Part shown: piece after piece, positions 3,417 to 34,493 of the stretch
Layout: every line of letters begins with the position of its first letter
Numbering within the stretch: the stretch's first letter is position 1
Origin: a virus
Virus record (IMG/VR): IMGVR_UViG_3300044612_003464
Coordinates: 1 to 38,546 of that record
Reading direction: 5' to 3' (one strand)
Length of the DNA stretch: 38,546 nucleotides
The notes under the pieces: generated by a model
What the model was told of the DNA's origin: nothing
Seen by the model: only the letters and a program-made list of their open reading frames with translations
Database searches by the model: none
Position numbers and translations under genes: made by a program

Positions 3417-6043
3417 TGAATATTAAGCGTGCCGACGTTGAGGGTTTGGATCGTACCAGTGCCATTACCTCCACCCACAGATGCCGTGGTCGCGGTCGCC
3501 GTGTTGCTCGCCGTCGAGTCGCCGGAGCCGTTTACAGCGAACACCCGGAAATCATACGTGATCGAAGGCGTCAGCCCGGTGTTGCTGTACGTGATAACGT
3601 TCGCTGCTGTGGTCGCAACCGTGCTCCATCCACCGGAGCCGATCCGGCGCTCAATCCGAAAGCCCGTCTCGTTGCTCGAATTGTCCGCCCACGCGAGGTT
3701 GATCTGCGTGGAACTGACCACGGTGGCCCCCAGAAAAGATGGCGCGGTAGGAACACTGGCGATTGTATAGGTTCCGCTTTGCACAGAACTATCAGCCAAA
3801 CCGGATTTGATCGTGATCGCCTTGAGCGTGGTCGTTGACCCAGGCAGAGTTACCGGAGTGGAATAAACAAGGCTGCTTGCCGTTGGCGTAGTTCCATCAA
3901 TCGTGTAGAAGATCGCATACGGTGCAGCGGAATCCGTCGTGATCGTTACCGTTTGCGCGGTCGCGTATGCTCCGGGCGCAGGCGAAAACTGTGGAGTTGC
4001 CGCTCCGCCGAGGTAGTCCTCATTGTTGTTCAGGAAGCGGTGGCCGGCAGGAAGACGCGCGGGGTCTTGCGTCGCGACGTTGTCTGCGTCGAAGACAGGC
4101 CACGGTTTGTTTCCAAATGCTGTCGGTTTCGATGACCAAATGAGAGAGACGGGAAACGTGTCGCCAGAACTGTTTTGAATGCTGCCCGTGCCGCTTGCGT
4201 TTCCAAAGCGGTTATGCACCACCGTCGCGCTTGCTTGCACGTCGAGGTCAAGCTCTTGGTAACCAGCGAAACCATTGTAGACCTGAAGCGACGTTGCTTG
4301 TGGTGGCAAAACGCCACCGGGAAATGACATGGTCACCTGATTGCCAGAGACCGCAGTCACGGACGAAACTCCGATTGCACCAACTCCTGATTGTTTGTTA
4401 TTCCACCAGATTCGCGGATACAAATCGGCACCAGTTAGCCAGCGTCCACCCGACACCGTGATGACTCCCACCGTGTCACTCACCCGCGTCGTCAGCGTGC
4501 CCGTGGTTTCCCAGTCAGCCCAGAAATCTCCCGAGGCTACGTCACCAGCTTGAATGATATATTCATAGGGACCGTACCCAGGTTGATTATACACGGGTTG
4601 TCCAACCTGATCCGACAACCCCGTTGGTCCGGCAAAACCAATTGCGTTGGTGTTATAATTCTTAAACCCCCACCCAATGCGCGCAGAGGTCTGCCCATCC
4701 TTGCCAAACAAATTCCGAGCTACGACAGTCCTTCGATTAAAAGACCCGATCCAAAGGGAGAAAAACCCACTTTCGCCAGTACCGCCACCGTAGAAGGCGT
4801 TGGAGTAGTAAACAAAATCAGACGAGCTACCGTGGTAAGCGTCGACTTGCGAAAAATACCCGTAGTTGCCTTCAATGATGTTCCGCGTTGGATGCGCGTT
4901 ATGAAACCCGGCAACGTTATCCGACGAGTAATTGTACGCATAGCCGCTGTTATTCGTATTCCCTGAGTCGTAAAGGTGGTACTGGAAAGAACCAACGAAC
5001 ACGTTGTCCCAAAATAGCACGGACGAAAGTCCTCCAGTCTCAATCAAACCGTCACCCGAAGTTCCCGGCAGCGACCGCAAATCACACTTTAGCACCTCGC
5101 ACCGATAGGAGTCCGTGATCTTGATCCACGACCCGTTGCTGGAATTGGTCGCGAAGTTCGACGCCTTGATGTTGGAGAACCAGCAGTACTGCGCGGCTGC
5201 AATGTTGAACGCCTGTGCCGGGTGCGCGGCGGCATCGAACTCGATGGAGAAGTCTTCAAATCCCCAACCAACCAGCTTCGTGGCGGGGTATCCGTAATGA
5301 ACAATTCGCAGCCCGAGATTTGTGGCGTCACCGGTCAGCGCGGGGTCAATCGTGATCGTGGTGGCCGTCTTTGCCATCACTCGGACAGTTTGTTTTCTGG
5401 CTTCCGGCCAGCCGAGACTTGTCCAGACAGGCGGAGCCCCCGCAATGATGCGGGCGTTGTTTACCTCATTCTCGTAGAGGACCCACGCGAATTGACCGCT
5501 CGTGAAATTTGTAGCGGACGCGACGGTGAGGACGCTTGTGTTGGCCGTCTTGGTTCCGGTGATCGTCTGAGATTCGCTGACGATGTACCCGCCGTCATTA
5601 GTCCAAAACACGCCTTGGGTGCCAGCCATCGACATGTAAAGCGTCGTGAGCGCAGGCCCAGCACCACGGATCGTGATGTCGTTTTTGTTCGCGTAAGTAA
5701 GGCCAAGGCGGTTGGTCAGTTTGTATCTGCCGGCTGGCAGGTACACGACGTCACCCGGAGAGGCCGCAGTGACCGCTGACCAGATGGCGGCCGATGTATC
5801 CAGCACACCAGTCTTGTCAGCGTTATGCGGGGATGCGGTAACATCAATCACGTTGCCCGTCACAGCGCGATCGTTCACCTTACCCGCGAGGTACTGTTCA
5901 GCGCCACCTGGCACACCTATGCCGGGCGTGCTGGCGTCAGTCCAAGCCGTCCACCAACCTTGCGCGGTGGCGGGTGGTGCCCAGACGGCGGCGCGAGCGA
6001 CCGCCGCGAACATGAACATGAGAACGAAAAGAAAGTGCTTCAT
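3413..6043 (-). CDS. Secreted pectin-lyase-fold protein with chitobiase-like and FN3 domains
   Basis: 876 residues. A Sec signal peptide (residues 1-18, MKHFLFVLMFMFAAVARA) is followed by a right-handed beta-helix of the pectate-lyase-3 type beginning near residue 64: DKTGVLDTSAAIWSAVTAAS, GDVVYLPAGRYKL, DITIRGAGP. The helix continues as repeated short strands to roughly residue 600. A CHB_HEX_C-like domain follows (FSPAPGAYATAQTVTITTDS ... YTIDGTTPTASS, about 685-755). Next come a fibronectin type III domain (PTAPSFLGATVVSSTQINLA ... TATTA, about 757-850) and a Gly-rich tail ending LNVGTLNIQ. Beta-helices of this class are typical of tailspikes that degrade polysaccharide, but tailspikes do not carry signal peptides, so a lysogenic-conversion enzyme or host-derived surface protein is equally possible. 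It is the last large gene before the holin. Confidence 0.8.
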   Translation of the reverse strand: MKHFLFVLMFMFAAVARAAVWAPPATAQGWWTAWTDASTPGIGVPGGAEQYLAGKVNDRAVTGNVIDVTASPHNADKTGVLDTSAAIWSAVTAASPGDVVYLPAGRYKLTNRLGLTYANKNDITIRGAGPALTTLYMSMAGTQGVFWTNDGGYIVSESQTITGTKTANTSVLTVASATNFTSGQFAWVLYENEVNNARIIAGAPPVWTSLGWPEARKQTVRVMAKTATTITIDPALTGDATNLGLRIVHYGYPATKLVGWGFEDFSIEFDAAAHPAQAFNIAAAQYCWFSNIKASNFATNSSNGSWIKITDSYRCEVLKCDLRSLPGTSGDGLIETGGLSSVLFWDNVFVGSFQYHLYDSGNTNNSGYAYNYSSDNVAGFHNAHPTRNIIEGNYGYFSQVDAYHGSSSDFVYYSNAFYGGGTGESGFFSLWIGSFNRRTVVARNLFGKDGQTSARIGWGFKNYNTNAIGFAGPTGLSDQVGQPVYNQPGYGPYEYIIQAGDVASGDFWADWETTGTLTTRVSDTVGVITVSGGRWLTGADLYPRIWWNNKQSGVGAIGVSSVTAVSGNQVTMSFPGGVLPPQATSLQVYNGFAGYQELDLDVQASATVVHNRFGNASGTGSIQNSSGDTFPVSLIWSSKPTAFGNKPWPVFDADNVATQDPARLPAGHRFLNNNEDYLGGAATPQFSPAPGAYATAQTVTITTDSAAPYAIFYTIDGTTPTASSLVYSTPVTLPGSTTTLKAITIKSGLADSSVQSGTYTIASVPTAPSFLGATVVSSTQINLAWADNSSNETGFRIERRIGSGGWSTVATTAANVITYSNTGLTPSITYDFRVFAVNGSGDSTASNTATATTASVGGGNGTGTIQTLNVGTLNIQ

Positions 6044-6044
6044 G

Positions 6045-7664
6045 TTAGTATTTGTAATTCACGTGCGTCGAAGCACCACGGAGGTACGAAGTGGACGAGG
6101 TCCATTCCGGGTTGATCGTAGTTGTCGCGGTTAATACTTTCCACGCGACGAGAATCCCGACGGAACTGCCTGATACCGGAGCGAGGTCAGCGGCCAAAGT
6201 GTACCCGGTAGGAACTGTAATCGTTCCAGACCCGGAATCATACACCGCCGACGTGACCGAGACCGTGTTGGCTTGCGTCGGGGTGATGCTGCCGGACGGC
6301 AGGGTCGTCCACGCGGTTTCCTCATCTTGAGCGTCTTGGTCCTTTGGCGACGACGCCATCCCACTGTACGCGATTACAGAAAGACTTCCATAGAACTCGG
6401 TGCCAGACAGACCAAACACATGCCCCGACCCAACCGTTCCACCGTGTACAACGTATTGCCGCACATGCCAGGTACCCGCGTTAGATGACGTGGCGGCAGA
6501 TGCTGTCGGCGTGTTGCCCAAGCTGTCTGTTATCGTGGGTTCCGTTGCACCGTACCAAGCCTTCGTATAGACGAGCGTACTGGCTCCTGTTGTGTTTACT
6601 GCGGAAAGAGTGAAGGTGTTTCCGCCAGAACCAGACCCGCCCTCAGTGTCCACTATAACTGCCGGGCCGCCTGCCGTGACCGTGTACGCTGCACTGGCGA
6701 CCGCGCTGTCGATGAGATAGGCGCCGTCCTTGTACGCCATCGACTCAATCGTTTGGTTTGCTGAAATAGTCCAAGTTGCGCCAGCGGTGCCAACCGAACG
6801 GCTAGGATCGGTCGTGTTGTTCGTGGTCATGAACGTTACGCCGCTCGTTCCTGATAAAATGGTAATCGTCGTGCCGCTCGCGACCGCACCAGCCGCAGGC
6901 GAAAACGTGGGCGTCGCTACGGTGCCTGCCATCTTGATGACCGGCTTGTAATCGGCGTCGTGGCCCGTGTACGCCGGGATTCCGTTGACGCCTGTTAGCG
7001 CCCAGCCGGCTGGAACGCTGGCGCTATCGAGGATGAATTTTACGTCACCCGTATCGGCGCCGCTGCCACCCGTCGAGTTGATCGTCATCGAGTTGTTGGT
7101 CGCGTTTCCAACAATTGTTACGCCGTCGCCTGGGTTGATCGTAAAGTTCCCGGTGTTGTTGATCGTCATCGTCGTCCCGTTCGCGATGATACGACGGAGA
7201 ATGTTACCCGTGAGGGTGGTAACATTCATCGTAACCGCGTTGACGGTGGAGAAATTGGCCGAGCCTGTGACGTTGATATTGCCGCCAATCGTATGATCAC
7301 CCGTCGTATTTCCACTTCCGACGATCCGCGTCTCACCAGTACCGCCCGGATCAAGAATGATGTTTTCGTTGGAGGCAGAAGCCAGCGTCACATTGCCGGA
7401 TGAGGCTACAACGTTTCCCGTTACCGTGTAGTTGCCGCCCATGCCGCCGCCACCACCGCCGCCGAGGTTGTTGGCGCTCGAGAAGGTCGCGGCATTGACC
7501 GGGCCCACGATCGCGCCGGTGGTGCGGTTGACGCTCAACGGGACGACCGTGGGAGCGGCGCTGCTTTGCGCGATAGCAGAGGGCGCGAGTGACAGGGGCC
7601 ACGTGACCAGGATCACGAGCCACCATGGAGCGGAGGCGAAAAGCGCGGGGCGAAGAGTCTTCAT
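6045..7664 (-). CDS. Secreted beta-rich protein with chitobiase-like domain
   Basis: 539 residues from ATG 7664, which overlaps the upstream stop (7661) as ATGA and gives a good signal peptide (MKTLRPALFASAPWWLVILV ... APSAIAQ). After a Gly run (GGGGGGGMGG), residues about 75-215 are Asn/Thr-rich short repeats built on 'I-x-G-N-x-T' strands (NITVTG-like), suggesting a repetitive beta-structure such as a fibre stalk. A CHB_HEX_C-like module follows (FSPAAGAVASGTTITILSGT ... MAYKDGAYLIDSAVASAAY). The C-terminal third (KAWYGATEPTITDS ... SVIAYSGM ... VAWKVLTATTTINPEW) resembles phage/surface beta-sandwich domains. It lies one base from the next gene (6043) and is probably a fibre-like partner of it. 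Confidence 0.7.
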   Translation of the reverse strand: MKTLRPALFASAPWWLVILVTWPLSLAPSAIAQSSAAPTVVPLSVNRTTGAIVGPVNAATFSSANNLGGGGGGGMGGNYTVTGNVVASSGNVTLASASNENIILDPGGTGETRIVGSGNTTGDHTIGGNINVTGSANFSTVNAVTMNVTTLTGNILRRIIANGTTMTINNTGNFTINPGDGVTIVGNATNNSMTINSTGGSGADTGDVKFILDSASVPAGWALTGVNGIPAYTGHDADYKPVIKMAGTVATPTFSPAAGAVASGTTITILSGTSGVTFMTTNNTTDPSRSVGTAGATWTISANQTIESMAYKDGAYLIDSAVASAAYTVTAGGPAVIVDTEGGSGSGGNTFTLSAVNTTGASTLVYTKAWYGATEPTITDSLGNTPTASAATSSNAGTWHVRQYVVHGGTVGSGHVFGLSGTEFYGSLSVIAYSGMASSPKDQDAQDEETAWTTLPSGSITPTQANTVSVTSAVYDSGSGTITVPTGYTLAADLAPVSGSSVGILVAWKVLTATTTINPEWTSSTSYLRGASTHVNYKY

Positions 7665-29387: not shown

Positions 29388-31100
29388 TCACTTGCCCTGC
29401 TCGATAATCTCGACGGTGTATCGTCGGTGTCGATTGCGCCCACGCTGGCCGAAGCGCACGCGTGAGCCGGTCTTCACCCGCATCACCTGGCCGCCAAACT
29501 TCTCCGAGAACATGCGCCCGAGCGCGCTCTTGCTCTTCTGGTTGAGCTCAAGCCACTCCTCGCCGCTCTCCCGATCCTTCTTCCACGTGCCCTCCATCGC
29601 CCACGAGAAGGCGTCGCACTCCTGGCATTCGTCGACCAGTTCCTGAAACGTGAACTCACGTTTGCTCAGCGGCGTCTCCTTGCCGTCCTCGAAGCGCACC
29701 ATCCGCTTCGTGACGAGCACCTCGACCAGCGCGAGCATGTCGGAAAGCTCGTTCGAACCCGAGTTGTCGTCACGCGGTGGCGCCTCACAGGGGTCACCGA
29801 AGCCAGCAGCCATGACGATGCCGCCGAAGATCTCACACCAGCGCTCGAACCCCTTGAGCACTCGCCCACCCTTGGGCCGGCCTTTGGCGTCCCAATCTCT
29901 GATCAGGGCCCACAAGGCGGAGAGCACATCCACGCGCACCTCTGGCCGGCAAAGCCACTCCTCGTCGATGGGCCGCCTCACCTCTCGCTCCTGTACGTCG
30001 AACTGCTCCGTGTAGAGCGACACACGCAGCGTACGGCGTTCGATGTCTTGGCTCAGCTTGAGGTTGTTGCCGGTGATGAAGACGATGCACTGCTTCTCCA
30101 CCGAGAATCCGGTGAGGCCTCCCAGCATGCGACCGCTCACGGTGGAGGCGGTCATGAACGCGTTAAGCTCCTGGCTCTTCAGCAAGCCGTCGAGATCGTC
30201 GAGGAAGAGATACATGTTTCCGTCGAGCGCGGCCGTGCTGAGCGTCTTCCGCAACTCTTCCGAGTTATCCCCCTTCAGCGCGACATTGGCGGTCCCGGTG
30301 ACTGCCACCAGCGGGATCTTCGCGAGAAGGGATTTGCCGCTTCCTACGGTGTTTGCCGTCATCACGTAGTGCAGACGCGGCGCCTTGGGCCCGAGCAGGC
30401 CCATCCCAAACAGACTCACCAAACTTGAGATGCACACCGCCAGGCTGCGGCTCGTGCCATCGTCACGCCGATCGCCAAATGGAAACTCCACAAAAAGATC
30501 ACGCAGGAAGGCCACGGCCTCAGCGATTGGCATGTCCGGCCGAACCACCACCTCCGTAGGCATCGTGAAAATTCGCGACGCGGGATCATATCCCGGCTGC
30601 AGCAGTTCGATGCGCCCACCCTTCTCTCCGCCCTCGCGCCAGACCGGCATCGGAACGGAATGCACCCGGAGAAGCTCACGCTGCTGATCCATAAACGCCG
30701 GGCTCTCGAGTACTCCTTTCGCGACGTCCGGTGACATCGTCATCGGCTTCCAAATCGGTTGATTGGTGTCCTGGTCCATGCCCTTCAGGCGCGCCGGGAC
30801 CATGTAGTCCTCGATGTACGTCCGAAAGCGCTGCGCGCTCATCGCCTTCCATCCTCCCTTTTTCCGGTCGATCGTCACCGCAATGTCCTCGCGCCTAAAA
30901 ACCCCGTTGGTCTTCAACAAGCCACCGATCTCGCGCGCCGTCCTGCTGAGCAGGTAGTTCTCACACGGCAAACGCACGAACGGAACGGATTTCTTCGCCT
31001 CACTGGGCGGCGCCGCAGACACGCCCACAGATGCGGCGTCGACTTTTCCGCCGGCCAAGGCGCGCGCCGTTGCGTTCGCGATTTCAGCTTGGTCGCTCAT
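29388..31100 (-). CDS. AAA+ replicative helicase / primase-associated ATPase
   Basis: 570 residues. The central NTPase has Walker A TVGSGKSLL (251-259), Walker B MYLFLDDLDG (296-305), a sensor region FITGNNLKLSQDIERRTLRV with Asn345 and candidate arginine fingers Arg355/356, and GKTLSTAALDG-like alpha segments. The arrangement matches phage/plasmid helicases that follow AEP-type primases (D5/SF3-like, DUF927-like group). The N-terminal 240 residues carry an unassigned domain (ENYLLSRTAREIGGLLKTNG); the C-terminal 100 are basic and may bind DNA (SRVRFGQRGRNRHRRYTVEI). It overlaps the primase stop (31097) by four bases and ends the early operon at an intrinsic terminator. Confidence 0.82.
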   Translation of the reverse strand: MSDQAEIANATARALAGGKVDAASVGVSAAPPSEAKKSVPFVRLPCENYLLSRTAREIGGLLKTNGVFRREDIAVTIDRKKGGWKAMSAQRFRTYIEDYMVPARLKGMDQDTNQPIWKPMTMSPDVAKGVLESPAFMDQQRELLRVHSVPMPVWREGGEKGGRIELLQPGYDPASRIFTMPTEVVVRPDMPIAEAVAFLRDLFVEFPFGDRRDDGTSRSLAVCISSLVSLFGMGLLGPKAPRLHYVMTANTVGSGKSLLAKIPLVAVTGTANVALKGDNSEELRKTLSTAALDGNMYLFLDDLDGLLKSQELNAFMTASTVSGRMLGGLTGFSVEKQCIVFITGNNLKLSQDIERRTLRVSLYTEQFDVQEREVRRPIDEEWLCRPEVRVDVLSALWALIRDWDAKGRPKGGRVLKGFERWCEIFGGIVMAAGFGDPCEAPPRDDNSGSNELSDMLALVEVLVTKRMVRFEDGKETPLSKREFTFQELVDECQECDAFSWAMEGTWKKDRESGEEWLELNQKSKSALGRMFSEKFGGQVMRVKTGSRVRFGQRGRNRHRRYTVEIIEQGK

Positions 31101-32395
31101 ACGGCAGGCGCCTTTAATCCCTCGCGCACTTGAACCAGCGCGTCGCGGACTCGATCGCTTACGTTCGCGTAATAGCTCAGGCCACCGAGCAACCAGGCCG
31201 CCCCGTCTCCCTCGTCGGCGTCACCAATACCGACCTTGGCCATTCCGCACCAGAACCCTTCGACGTCACGCGTGGTGGCGATGTCCTTCAAAGCGCGCAG
31301 CGGCGCATTCGGTCGGAGATACAGCAGTTTCTGGAGCTGCGGCGGGGTGAAGCGCACGTACCGGTCTTCCTTGTCTCGCTTTCCCAATCGCATGGCACCT
31401 GGCAGCCGAGTCAAACGCACGCAGGAAAGGGCTCCCGGATCGTTCCCGCCCAAGTGCAGCAAGTTGAGCGTCGGTTCCAGTGCTTTGCGCTCCTCATCCC
31501 ATTGGCGCCGCGTCGCGCAGTCGATTCTGACCAGCACGTGAATGCTTCGGCCGCCGCTCGTGTAAATCGCCTCGATTCGAAGCGGGATCTGCACGAGCAG
31601 CCCGAGCCAGTCGCGCATGTCTGCCGTGTCGCTCTCGAGCACCAAATAGCGAAACGCAGTGACGCTTTCCTCGCTGCGCCGACTCAGCTTCGGCTGCCCG
31701 GCCTTGTCGAGATTTCGAGGGTTGGGATGATATTTTCCATCGATCGGCTGCGCGAGAAACCATACTCCCTCGGGGCCTTCCGTTGGCACCTTGTCTGCCG
31801 GCCATACCGCCTGGCCCTGACTCTTCCATGTCGTGAAGCACAGCACTTTCTCGGTCGGCGCGTAAAGGGACTGAAGAAAACGCTGCGCGGTGACCTGAGC
31901 GGGGTCCATCGTTGAGCGATTGGCCAGCCAACACAAGTCGACGACCTCGCGCCACGAACCTGCCATTGAACGCAGCTTGGAGGGATCAAATTCCGGACGT
32001 TCAACGCGGGGCGCCGGGGCGATGTACTTTCCAACCCGCGCGCCCTTCTCATCGGTCGCGATGGGCCTTCCGACGTCGAAGTGACCGCCGCCTCCCTGAT
32101 CGCGCAAGAAACCGCGCGGCTTCACCCCTTCACGCGTCTGCAACCCAGGCGCCTTCTCAGCCCCATTGATCTTGTGGGCTAATTCGCTTTCGCTCCAAGG
32201 CGGATCGCAGCGGAGGTTATACTCGCGCAAAAGGGGCAGCGCCTCAGACCCGGAAAGCCCAAAACCCTGAACTAAAACACAGGCGACGTGAAACGTTGCC
32301 GCGTGCCCGCCGGCTCCGGCAACTGCAGCGTCGAGTTTGGCGACATATCTCCGGGCCCTTTCATCGAGAGAGAGCCGTTTTCCATCGTTGTTCAT
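31097..32395 (-). CDS. Archaeo-eukaryotic-type primase with N-terminal PriCT-like domain
   Basis: 432 residues. Residues 33-80 (ATFHVACVLVQGFGLSGSEA ... LPLLREYNLRCDPPWSESEL ... AHKINGA) match PriCT_1, the helical domain usually attached to phage/plasmid primases. The catalytic AEP part has the acidic metal-binding strand LVLESDTADM (Glu254, Asp256), SGGRSIHVLVRID (280-292, the sxH nucleotide motif with His286) and the conserved RLTRLPGAMRLGK strand near 330-341. It would synthesise primers for phage DNA replication with the adjoining helicase. PriCT is more often C-terminal, so the domain order is slightly unusual. The leader before ATG is CCCACAAAAC, with no Shine-Dalgarno. Confidence 0.82.
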   Translation of the reverse strand: MNNDGKRLSLDERARRYVAKLDAAVAGAGGHAATFHVACVLVQGFGLSGSEALPLLREYNLRCDPPWSESELAHKINGAEKAPGLQTREGVKPRGFLRDQGGGGHFDVGRPIATDEKGARVGKYIAPAPRVERPEFDPSKLRSMAGSWREVVDLCWLANRSTMDPAQVTAQRFLQSLYAPTEKVLCFTTWKSQGQAVWPADKVPTEGPEGVWFLAQPIDGKYHPNPRNLDKAGQPKLSRRSEESVTAFRYLVLESDTADMRDWLGLLVQIPLRIEAIYTSGGRSIHVLVRIDCATRRQWDEERKALEPTLNLLHLGGNDPGALSCVRLTRLPGAMRLGKRDKEDRYVRFTPPQLQKLLYLRPNAPLRALKDIATTRDVEGFWCGMAKVGIGDADEGDGAAWLLGGLSYYANVSDRVRDALVQVREGLKAPAV

Positions 32396-32405
32396 GTTTT
32401 GTGGG

Positions 32406-33308
32406 CTACGCTGTGACAGACTCTCTTGAGATCTGTGCGCGTAGTGGGAAAGCTAGTACGTTGCCGCCGGCGAGATCGTCGAGCGGACTGCCAACGCCGG
32501 CGACTTCTTTGGGAAGAACGTGCAGGTAAATCTCCGTCGTCGAAATATCATTGTGCCCGAGCAAATCTCGGAGCTTGTGCAGCGGCACGCCGCGCTCGAG
32601 CTGATGCGTTGCGTACGAGTGCCTGAGCACGTGCATCGTCACGCGCTTACTGATCCCTGCGCGCCGAACCGCGCTTCGGAGGGCTTTAGAGAAACCATCC
32701 TCGTGTGTGTGGTGCCTTCTCACGATCCCGCTGCGCGGATCCTGAGAAAGATTCCGACCCGGGAAGGCCCAGAACCAAGCCCACTCGCTCCCGGCGGTGG
32801 GATACTTTCGCTCAAGGGTACCCGGCAACTGCACCGGCGGCCGTCCTTGTGCTCGATCGCCCTCCCACAACGAGCGTACTCGCTGCAGATGATCGCCAAA
32901 CACACCCCGCAGCGACTCGGGCAAGCCCACCGCGCGGTCCTTGTCGCCCTTGGCTCCACGGATTGTCACCACGCGGCGTTCAAGATCGACATCCTTCACC
33001 CGCAGCCGCACGCACTCCATCAAGCGCATCCCGCAGCCATAGGTGAGCTGAAGCATCAGTTGATGGGTGCCCGAGGCCAGGCTCAGAACCCGACGCATCT
33101 CATCGACCGTCAGCCAGACCGGGGGGTAGCCGAGTTCGGCGATGTCCACGCCGACGCATTTCCAGCCGCGTGCCGCGAAGCATTTCGACCAGCCTCCGAC
33201 TCCGCAGAAAAGATCAAGCAGACGCAGAGGCGAACCAGACGCCAGAGCCAACGGCGCGGAAACGTCCATCCGGCTTTCCAAAGCTGAGAGTGTCGCGCCG
33301 TGGCTCAT
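32406..33308 (-). CDS. Chimera: DNA cytosine methyltransferase N-terminus fused to integron-integrase catalytic domain
   Basis: 300 residues in one open frame. Residues 28-63 are the SAM-binding start of a phage-type DNA cytosine methyltransferase: motif I LLDLFCGVGGW (30-40), GWKCVGVDIAELGYPP with acidic Asp55. The methyltransferase catalytic (PCQ) and target-recognition parts are absent. From residue 65 (VWLTVDEMRRVL) the protein is an IntI-type tyrosine recombinase catalytic domain: Arg95 (GCGMRLMECVRLRVKDVD), lysine in RGAKGDKDRA, the integron-specific insert LERKYPTAGSEWAW ... DPRSGIVRRHH (about 165-200), His226-Arg229 in HVLRHSYATH, His252 in LLGHNDISTTEIY and nucleophile Tyr261. The N-terminal core-binding domain of IntI is missing. 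The join lies at a run of six C (33121-33126). All catalytic residues are kept, so the recombinase half may be active; alternatively it is a degraded fusion. Confidence 0.85.
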   Translation of the reverse strand: MSHGATLSALESRMDVSAPLALASGSPLRLLDLFCGVGGWSKCFAARGWKCVGVDIAELGYPPVWLTVDEMRRVLSLASGTHQLMLQLTYGCGMRLMECVRLRVKDVDLERRVVTIRGAKGDKDRAVGLPESLRGVFGDHLQRVRSLWEGDRAQGRPPVQLPGTLERKYPTAGSEWAWFWAFPGRNLSQDPRSGIVRRHHTHEDGFSKALRSAVRRAGISKRVTMHVLRHSYATHQLERGVPLHKLRDLLGHNDISTTEIYLHVLPKEVAGVGSPLDDLAGGNVLAFPLRAQISRESVTA

Positions 33309-33317
33309 CGTTGGTCG

Positions 33318-34493
33318 TTAGCGAAGCAAAGCCATCATGGCGGTTTGAGTTGATCCGTCCGGCGCAACGTTCTCGAACGGCGTGCTGGCGACCGGCTCAC
33401 TTCCGTCCCAGCCGCGAGGCCACGTCTGCGCGTCGATCAGCTCCATGATCTTCGCCTCTTCCTCGGCGTTGATGAGGTCGACACCGGCGCGCGCCTGGAT
33501 GTCCTTCACGCGATCTAAGGCCCACCGCCGAGCGTCAAACGTCAGTGGCCCCATCCGGCACGGATTGGCCACGAGCGAGCCATCTTTGCGCGTTTCGCTT
33601 CCATCTTTCCGCAGGCGGTTCGCCGGCTTCTTCAACTCGGCGTAGAGCGGCCTCAGTTCCATCAGCGGTGCATATTGCGCCCACTGCGGGCGCTTGATGA
33701 TTTGTTCGAGTGCGAAGTCGCGGCTCGCAAGATTGCAGCCGACGCAGCCGGTACGGGCGTGCGTTTCGAGGTCTTGATCCTGCCCATACACGGCCGCAAT
33801 CAGCTTTGTCGAGAAGCCGTGCTCTAGTCCTTCCGGCACGAGTCCCGTGAGCCAGTCCCAGACGTGGCAGAGGCGCCAATGCAGCAGCGGCGCAAGGGTG
33901 TCGGCAACCGCGTCAGGCGTGGCTTCCTGAAACCAGCCTTGTCCGCACTCGGAGTTGTTTTTCCCGCACGAGAGCGCGATACGCCCGTCACGCGCAGCGC
34001 TCTCCCCAATCCTCACACCGGTCAGCATCAGAAATTTCTTTCCGGCCTGGTCGCGTAGCGCCTTCAGCGCGGCGACCATCGGCTCGATCTTCAGTTGGGC
34101 AGTGCACCAGCGGAAGGTGTTCGACGGCGGCGGCACACCGCGGCCAAGCATGTAAACGAAGAAGCGATCTTCCATCGTGGGCATCACGACCTGCGTCTTC
34201 ACGCCGCGCGCACGCAGTTCGGCGAGGATCGTCATCGCAGTAGTGAAGAGCGGCGGCAGCTCCATGCGCGTGTCGGACATCAGTACCGTCAGCGACTGCG
34301 GCGCGCGCACACGGCCAGTTTCGATTAGGTGCACCACTGCTGCCACGGTGGCGGACGAGTCCTTGCCGCCGCTGAAGGCGATGGCCCAGTGATCGTAAAG
34401 CGCGCCGTACGCGTTGAGGCTCTGCGCTGTGAGTTCGAGCGCGTCCGGAAGCAACAGCCGTGCTCCATCGAAAAGTGTGGGTTGTCTTTGCAT
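33318..34493 (-). CDS. DndC-like sulfurtransferase (PAPS-reductase fold)
   Basis: 391 residues. The ATP-pyrophosphatase loop is SGGKDSSAT (41-49). GRGVPPPSNTFRWCTAQLKI (118-136), LTGVRIGESAARD, the HWRLCHVWDWL segment and GCVGCNLASRDFALEQIIK (249-267) correspond in order and spacing to DndC, the phosphorothioation enzyme (as I recall, GRGYPAP..FRWCT.RLKI, ESSARA, GCWVC). Cys130, Cys176, Cys183, Cys250 and Cys253 could hold an Fe-S cluster. DndC partners (DndA/B/D/E) and Ssp genes are not in this genome. It may modify DNA or a nucleotide with sulfur, counter a host sulfur-dependent defence, or act like IbrA, which pairs with a ParB-like protein; a ParB-like gene is encoded just upstream. Confidence 0.82.
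   Translation of the reverse strand: MQRQPTLFDGARLLLPDALELTAQSLNAYGALYDHWAIAFSGGKDSSATVAAVVHLIETGRVRAPQSLTVLMSDTRMELPPLFTTAMTILAELRARGVKTQVVMPTMEDRFFVYMLGRGVPPPSNTFRWCTAQLKIEPMVAALKALRDQAGKKFLMLTGVRIGESAARDGRIALSCGKNNSECGQGWFQEATPDAVADTLAPLLHWRLCHVWDWLTGLVPEGLEHGFSTKLIAAVYGQDQDLETHARTGCVGCNLASRDFALEQIIKRPQWAQYAPLMELRPLYAELKKPANRLRKDGSETRKDGSLVANPCRMGPLTFDARRWALDRVKDIQARAGVDLINAEEEAKIMELIDAQTWPRGWDGSEPVASTPFENVAPDGSTQTAMMALLR

Follow-up and report, generated by a model that had tools for sequence, protein, structure and literature searches.

An integron-integrase catalytic domain fused in frame to a methyltransferase stub in a tailed phage, probably the product of a deletion between neighbouring genes

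One gene of an uncultivated tailed phage joins the first 62 codons of a small DNA methyltransferase to the catalytic domain of an integron integrase (IntI). The window, which is the entire virus record of 38,546 bases, carries this gene on its minus strand as a frame of 300 codons running without interruption from an ATG at 33308 to 32406; a sequence-only reading of the same DNA had reported the frame correctly, leaving its strand unstated. The protein has two parentages, each parent is represented by one half, the catalytic residues of the recombinase are intact, and relatives carry the two parental genes in the matching order. It is reasonably likely that the fusion arose by an in-frame deletion and does not represent a novel type of enzyme. 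The surrounding genes are those of a tailed phage (major capsid, portal, head maturation protease, terminase, AAA ATPase, primase-like, PAPS reductase and ParB), and the fusion lies among them with operon-tight spacing (Table 1).

Table 1. Parts of the fusion gene and its neighbours in the window
Feature	Coordinates	Strand	Evidence
Methyltransferase-derived 5' part, residues 1-62 (motif I LLDLFCGVGGW)	33123..33308	-	83% to L004 methyltransferase over residues 21-62, 82% to L005
IntI catalytic domain part, residues 63-300 and stop	32406..33122	-	TIGR02249 271.5 bits over residues 63-279; catalytic residues; 77% to L002 IntI
Junction, six-C run on coding strand, codons TAC CCC CCG GTC	33121..33126	-	
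Upstream neighbour, PAPS reductase-like gene	33318..34493	-	PF01507 1.1e-8, phrog_12882 1.8e-147; ends 9 bp before fusion start
Downstream neighbour, primase-like gene	31097..32395	-	phrog_2597 5.4e-11; 43-46% to L126; starts 10 bp after fusion
AAA ATPase gene, after primase in window and L126	29388..31100	-	PF00004 2.7e-4; 39-41% to L126

The recombinase half is assigned by several concordant comparisons. In a profile search it covers positions 99-315 of the 315 in TIGR02249, and its score exceeds the curated cutoff of 265 bits despite the absence of the N-terminal third of the model. Pfam Phage_integrase matches residues 65-266 (4.6e-32), and residues 63-277 align with Vibrio cholerae IntI4 (PDB 2a3v) at 4e-53. 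This alignment is unbroken across the integron-specific insert (I2 region, LERKYP..DPRSG..RRHH), whose presence the TIGR02249 score also indicates. The RKHRH catalytic residues and the nucleophilic tyrosine are all present (Arg95, Lys120, His226, Arg229, His252 and Tyr261). AlphaFold2 models the catalytic domain at high confidence, and a fold comparison covering residues 56-279 of the fusion places it on IntI4 with a Z score of 26.9 and 1.4 A over 204 residues at 42% identity. Its nearest kin are the IntI proteins of two phage contigs, L002 (IMGVR_UViG_3300017747_005062) and, at 60% identity, L126 (IMGVR_UViG_3300049823_000642). Profile, residue check and structural alignment therefore bear out the original identification of an IntI-type catalytic domain with its insert and active site. 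Positions 1-98 of TIGR02249, the core-binding domain, are unmatched, and no remnant of that domain was found anywhere in the window.

The N-terminal stub has a different source. It matches the intact 207-aa methyltransferase of contig L004, and searched alone against profiles it gives weak methyltransferase matches (PF13489, 3.7e-4; phrog_363, 6.4e-4). Separate searches of the two halves, as had been recommended, thus lead to phage methyltransferases for the first and to the IntI catalytic domain for the second. The SAM-binding motif I is conserved with the intact relatives, which match phrog_363 and continue beyond GYP to motif IV (SPPC) and the C-terminal half. After GYP the fusion departs from this family, and no remnant of motif IV or the C-terminal half was found elsewhere in the window, so that both losses noted earlier, of the IntI core-binding domain and of the methyltransferase catalytic half, are confirmed. 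Motif I together with SPPC in the relatives makes a cytosine methyltransferase plausible as the parent, with a PF00145 score below its cutoff; the earlier description of a DNA cytosine methyltransferase start consequently stands for methyltransferase origin and is only plausible for cytosine.

Half a Rossmann fold is not expected to bind SAM. In the AlphaFold2 model of the fusion the stub has a pLDDT of about 40 and no strands, whereas the same residues in a model of the intact methyltransferase form a strand-helix-strand at about 60-74. Both models drew on shallow alignments of the same few relatives for that part, and the intact control is itself of low confidence (mean pLDDT 54.6 for the whole protein), so the comparison is weak evidence, suggestive only of a stub that may be disordered in the fusion. 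Because the rest of the Rossmann fold is absent and the stub is modelled as disordered, SAM sensing by the fusion is unlikely, and the proposal of a SAM-sensing recombinase finds no support.

The window reads GGC TAC CCC CCG GTC TGG at the join. Methyltransferase relatives read GGC TAC CCG, GGC TAC CCT or GGC TAT CCT at this point, and IntI relatives read CTC CCT GTG TGG or CTG CCC GTG TGG. Comparison of the codons of both parent families therefore places the crossover within shared C residues; Pro62 is best read as methyltransferase sequence and Pro63 as IntI sequence, in good agreement with the initial estimate of about residue 64. The other two frames past the six-C run stop after 4 and 7 codons, so that the number of C residues determines whether the two parts are read in frame. 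A degenerate DNA pattern for the junction peptide found no second copy in viral contigs; a match in L008 is due to chance and lies in an unrelated frame. L003, which matched inside a 2284-aa protein, was set aside as a chance hit. No second fusion was found in the viral contigs, bacterial genomes, phages or plasmids searched, no genome there shares the junction, and no paper on such a fusion was found in the literature. The view that the architecture is without precedent accordingly holds for these collections.

These features also bear on whether the gene is real. Two unrelated molecules might have been joined at C-rich microhomology during assembly or amplification, as would fit a join inside a homopolymer, a single metagenomic contig, no second copy in the collections searched and two halves that both look freshly conserved. 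Such a chimera is nevertheless unlikely, although worth taking seriously. The window contains no N and GC3 is alike on both sides; neither tetranucleotide nor GC3 usage breaks at the join (0.852, compared with 0.67-0.89 for other split points). The parents have just a few C residues in common, too little for a k-mer assembler, and the order methyltransferase, IntI, primase matches that of real relatives.

That order argues for deletion. L126 is part of a phage contig of 28 kb that is collinear with the window through capsid protease, portal, terminase, AAA, primase and IntI. Its IntI is full length (338 aa) and comes right before the primase-like orthologue; an intact N6/N4 methyltransferase gene lies ahead of it, ending at a distance of 27 bp. 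In L206/L207 a methyltransferase of the window's type (80% to L004 in L207) is followed by two small genes, a full-length IntI and a primase/helicase, and in L002 a Dcm-type methyltransferase gene directly precedes an intact IntI. A deletion between adjacent genes is favoured because relatives keep methyltransferase, full-length IntI and primase adjoining on one strand. The sequence-only reading had offered a capture scar, in which a fragment of an integron integrase inserted from outside into a methyltransferase gene. The methyltransferase is indeed interrupted at IntI sequence; however, its 3' half is absent downstream, which favours deletion over insertion, and IntI is native at the same place in the collinear L126. 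Capture from outside is therefore highly improbable, and what survives of the earlier proposal is the scar itself, attributed to deletion between neighbours and not to an integrase landing in the gene.

Other observations point the same way. The open frame preceding the junction position is short in just 2 of 115 IntI relatives from phages and bacteria (L204 and L119; in nine others of the 115 the contig ends there). The window retains neither missing half, both neighbours are tightly spaced, no other viral contig has the junction peptide apart from the chance match in L008, and the stub lacks the strands modelled in the intact methyltransferase. L204 was considered as a second IntI without a core-binding domain and rejected, as its core-binding part is visible in another frame; L204:1-1079 is a phage IntI broken by a frameshift and a short loss in that part, which reflects either decay of phage IntI genes or sequencing error.

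Against deletion, L126 has a different type of methyltransferase upstream of its IntI, the fusion is a single instance, and the pre-deletion state of the exact lineage was not found. Peptide patterns from the window primase gave no close relatives. Alignment of the primase gave 22 relatives, some on contigs that end near the primase, and an IntI match lies beside the primase only in L126 (= L237); none of the 76 loci of PAPS reductase relatives has the fusion or an IntI match. When named phages were compared with the whole fusion region, PAPS reductase alone gave similarity, and an Rfam search of the window gave no match. Among named phages, Akkermansia phage Moulinsart has the nearest primase (35% identity), a weak hint that the host might be verrucomicrobial.

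Under the deletion account, the ancestor would have carried a small DNA methyltransferase gene upstream of a full-length IntI gene, both on one strand, with the primase immediately following. The deletion would have taken out the final two thirds of the methyltransferase gene together with the ~100 codons at the start of IntI, the ends probably meeting within the few shared C residues. From the lengths of the relatives, the loss would be at least some 0.7 kb, made up of about 145 methyltransferase and about 100 IntI codons. The IntI catalytic domain would thereby have come to stand behind 62 methyltransferase codons and the methyltransferase start signals.

The fusion protein probably retains a folded tyrosine-recombinase catalytic domain whose active site is intact. 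In tyrosine recombinases, the core-binding and catalytic domains jointly form a clamp around DNA. Since the core-binding half of this clamp is gone, efficient site-specific recombination is unlikely and normal activity has probably been lost, with residual cleavage possible. A recombination-defective remnant is probably the best description, and it is the most likely reading. The phage may use a different recombinase instead, for example that encoded at 240-1166 on the plus strand, which has HNCLRH and RY motifs. The earlier statement that the phage has its own integrase is correct as to its presence; the profile match is weak, with 26.3 bits for Phage_integrase under the cutoff of 27.1, and phrog_1 at 5e-16.

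Conservation of the fusion leaves room for a second interpretation. In the IntI half, 0 of 53 columns invariant among relatives are broken, private changes number 11 in the window against 17 in L002, and the end branch in the tree is 0.063 against 0.27 for L002. The methyltransferase half, compared with L004 and L207 over 35 codons, has a pS of about 0.5 and a pN of about 0.1, so that synonymous changes per site far outnumber those that alter the protein. With no sign of decay in the recombinase half, the fusion is either recent, of continuing use, or artefactual; the lack of constraint loss, which fits a recent deletion, fits a working protein too. The in-frame join is a one-in-three chance, although a deletion scar need not be in frame.

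The fusion may be a retargeted recombinase: a working, domain-swapped enzyme kept by selection, in which a methyltransferase-derived tail replaces the core-binding domain and which acts on phage or host DNA. Intact catalytic residues, unrelaxed constraint with a short end branch, and the in-frame join within a tightly spaced operon would suit such an enzyme. Yet the conservation figures may reflect mainly what preceded the fusion, the stub comes out disordered in the model, a core-binding domain is retained in nearly all relatives, and only one instance is known, so that this interpretation is quite unlikely. Its more specific form, a phage-maintained IntI with a methyltransferase tail acting on folded single-stranded or junction DNA, is very doubtful. 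If the protein were functional, an integron-integrase active site could work without its core-binding domain. If it is only a scar, as the deletion account holds, it offers a clear example of how deletion in packed phage operons makes chimeric proteins, and a caution against inferring function from one lone fusion.

Full-length IntI-type recombinases with the integron insert occur in many uncultivated phage contigs (L126-L204, L206-L207); 92 relatives in viral contigs were confirmed and 80 kept. These proteins may work as phage integrases or may act on cassettes. A quick tree of 83 catalytic domains, its bacterial rows picked by similarity to the window protein, contains groups made up solely of phage sequences, with 19 and 13 rows and support of 99. 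Upstream neighbours of phage IntI genes include methyltransferases, Mom and PAPS reductase. Among same-strand downstream neighbours, 14 of 55 are a second, different tyrosine integrase just downstream (e.g. in L128, with the integrase at 5600-6775, L133, L139, L142, L143, L144, L145, L164 and L201). Several of these downstream integrases are mutually related, and the arrangement suggests that IntI and its neighbour may form a recombinase pair. A viral origin of integrons has been speculated (PMC4792948); phage-only IntI clades, widespread in uncultivated contigs, bear on this idea and outweigh the fusion in interest.

The fusion can be set beside several known systems. Integrons, and hence IntI genes, have already been described in phage genomes (Qi et al. 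2023, PMC9892861). These resemble the window in placing IntI in a phage, and differ in having attI/attC sites and cassettes; the passages of that account consulted contain no methyltransferase fusion. The small phage methyltransferases of L004, L005/L209 and L206/L207 (phrog_363) share 74-85% identity with the stub over 33-43 residues; at about 168-263 aa, they include motif IV SPPC and the C-terminal half, whereas the window retains 62 residues. IntI as defined by TIGR02249 and represented by V. cholerae IntI4 has the same catalytic domain, integron insert and RKHRH residues with tyrosine, while the fusion bears a methyltransferase stub in place of the core-binding domain and its gene sits in a phage replication operon. 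The closest counterparts are the full-length IntI proteins of L126 and L002, the former also in the same place before the primase; unlike the fusion, each of them retains its core-binding domain and is encoded separately from the methyltransferase gene upstream.
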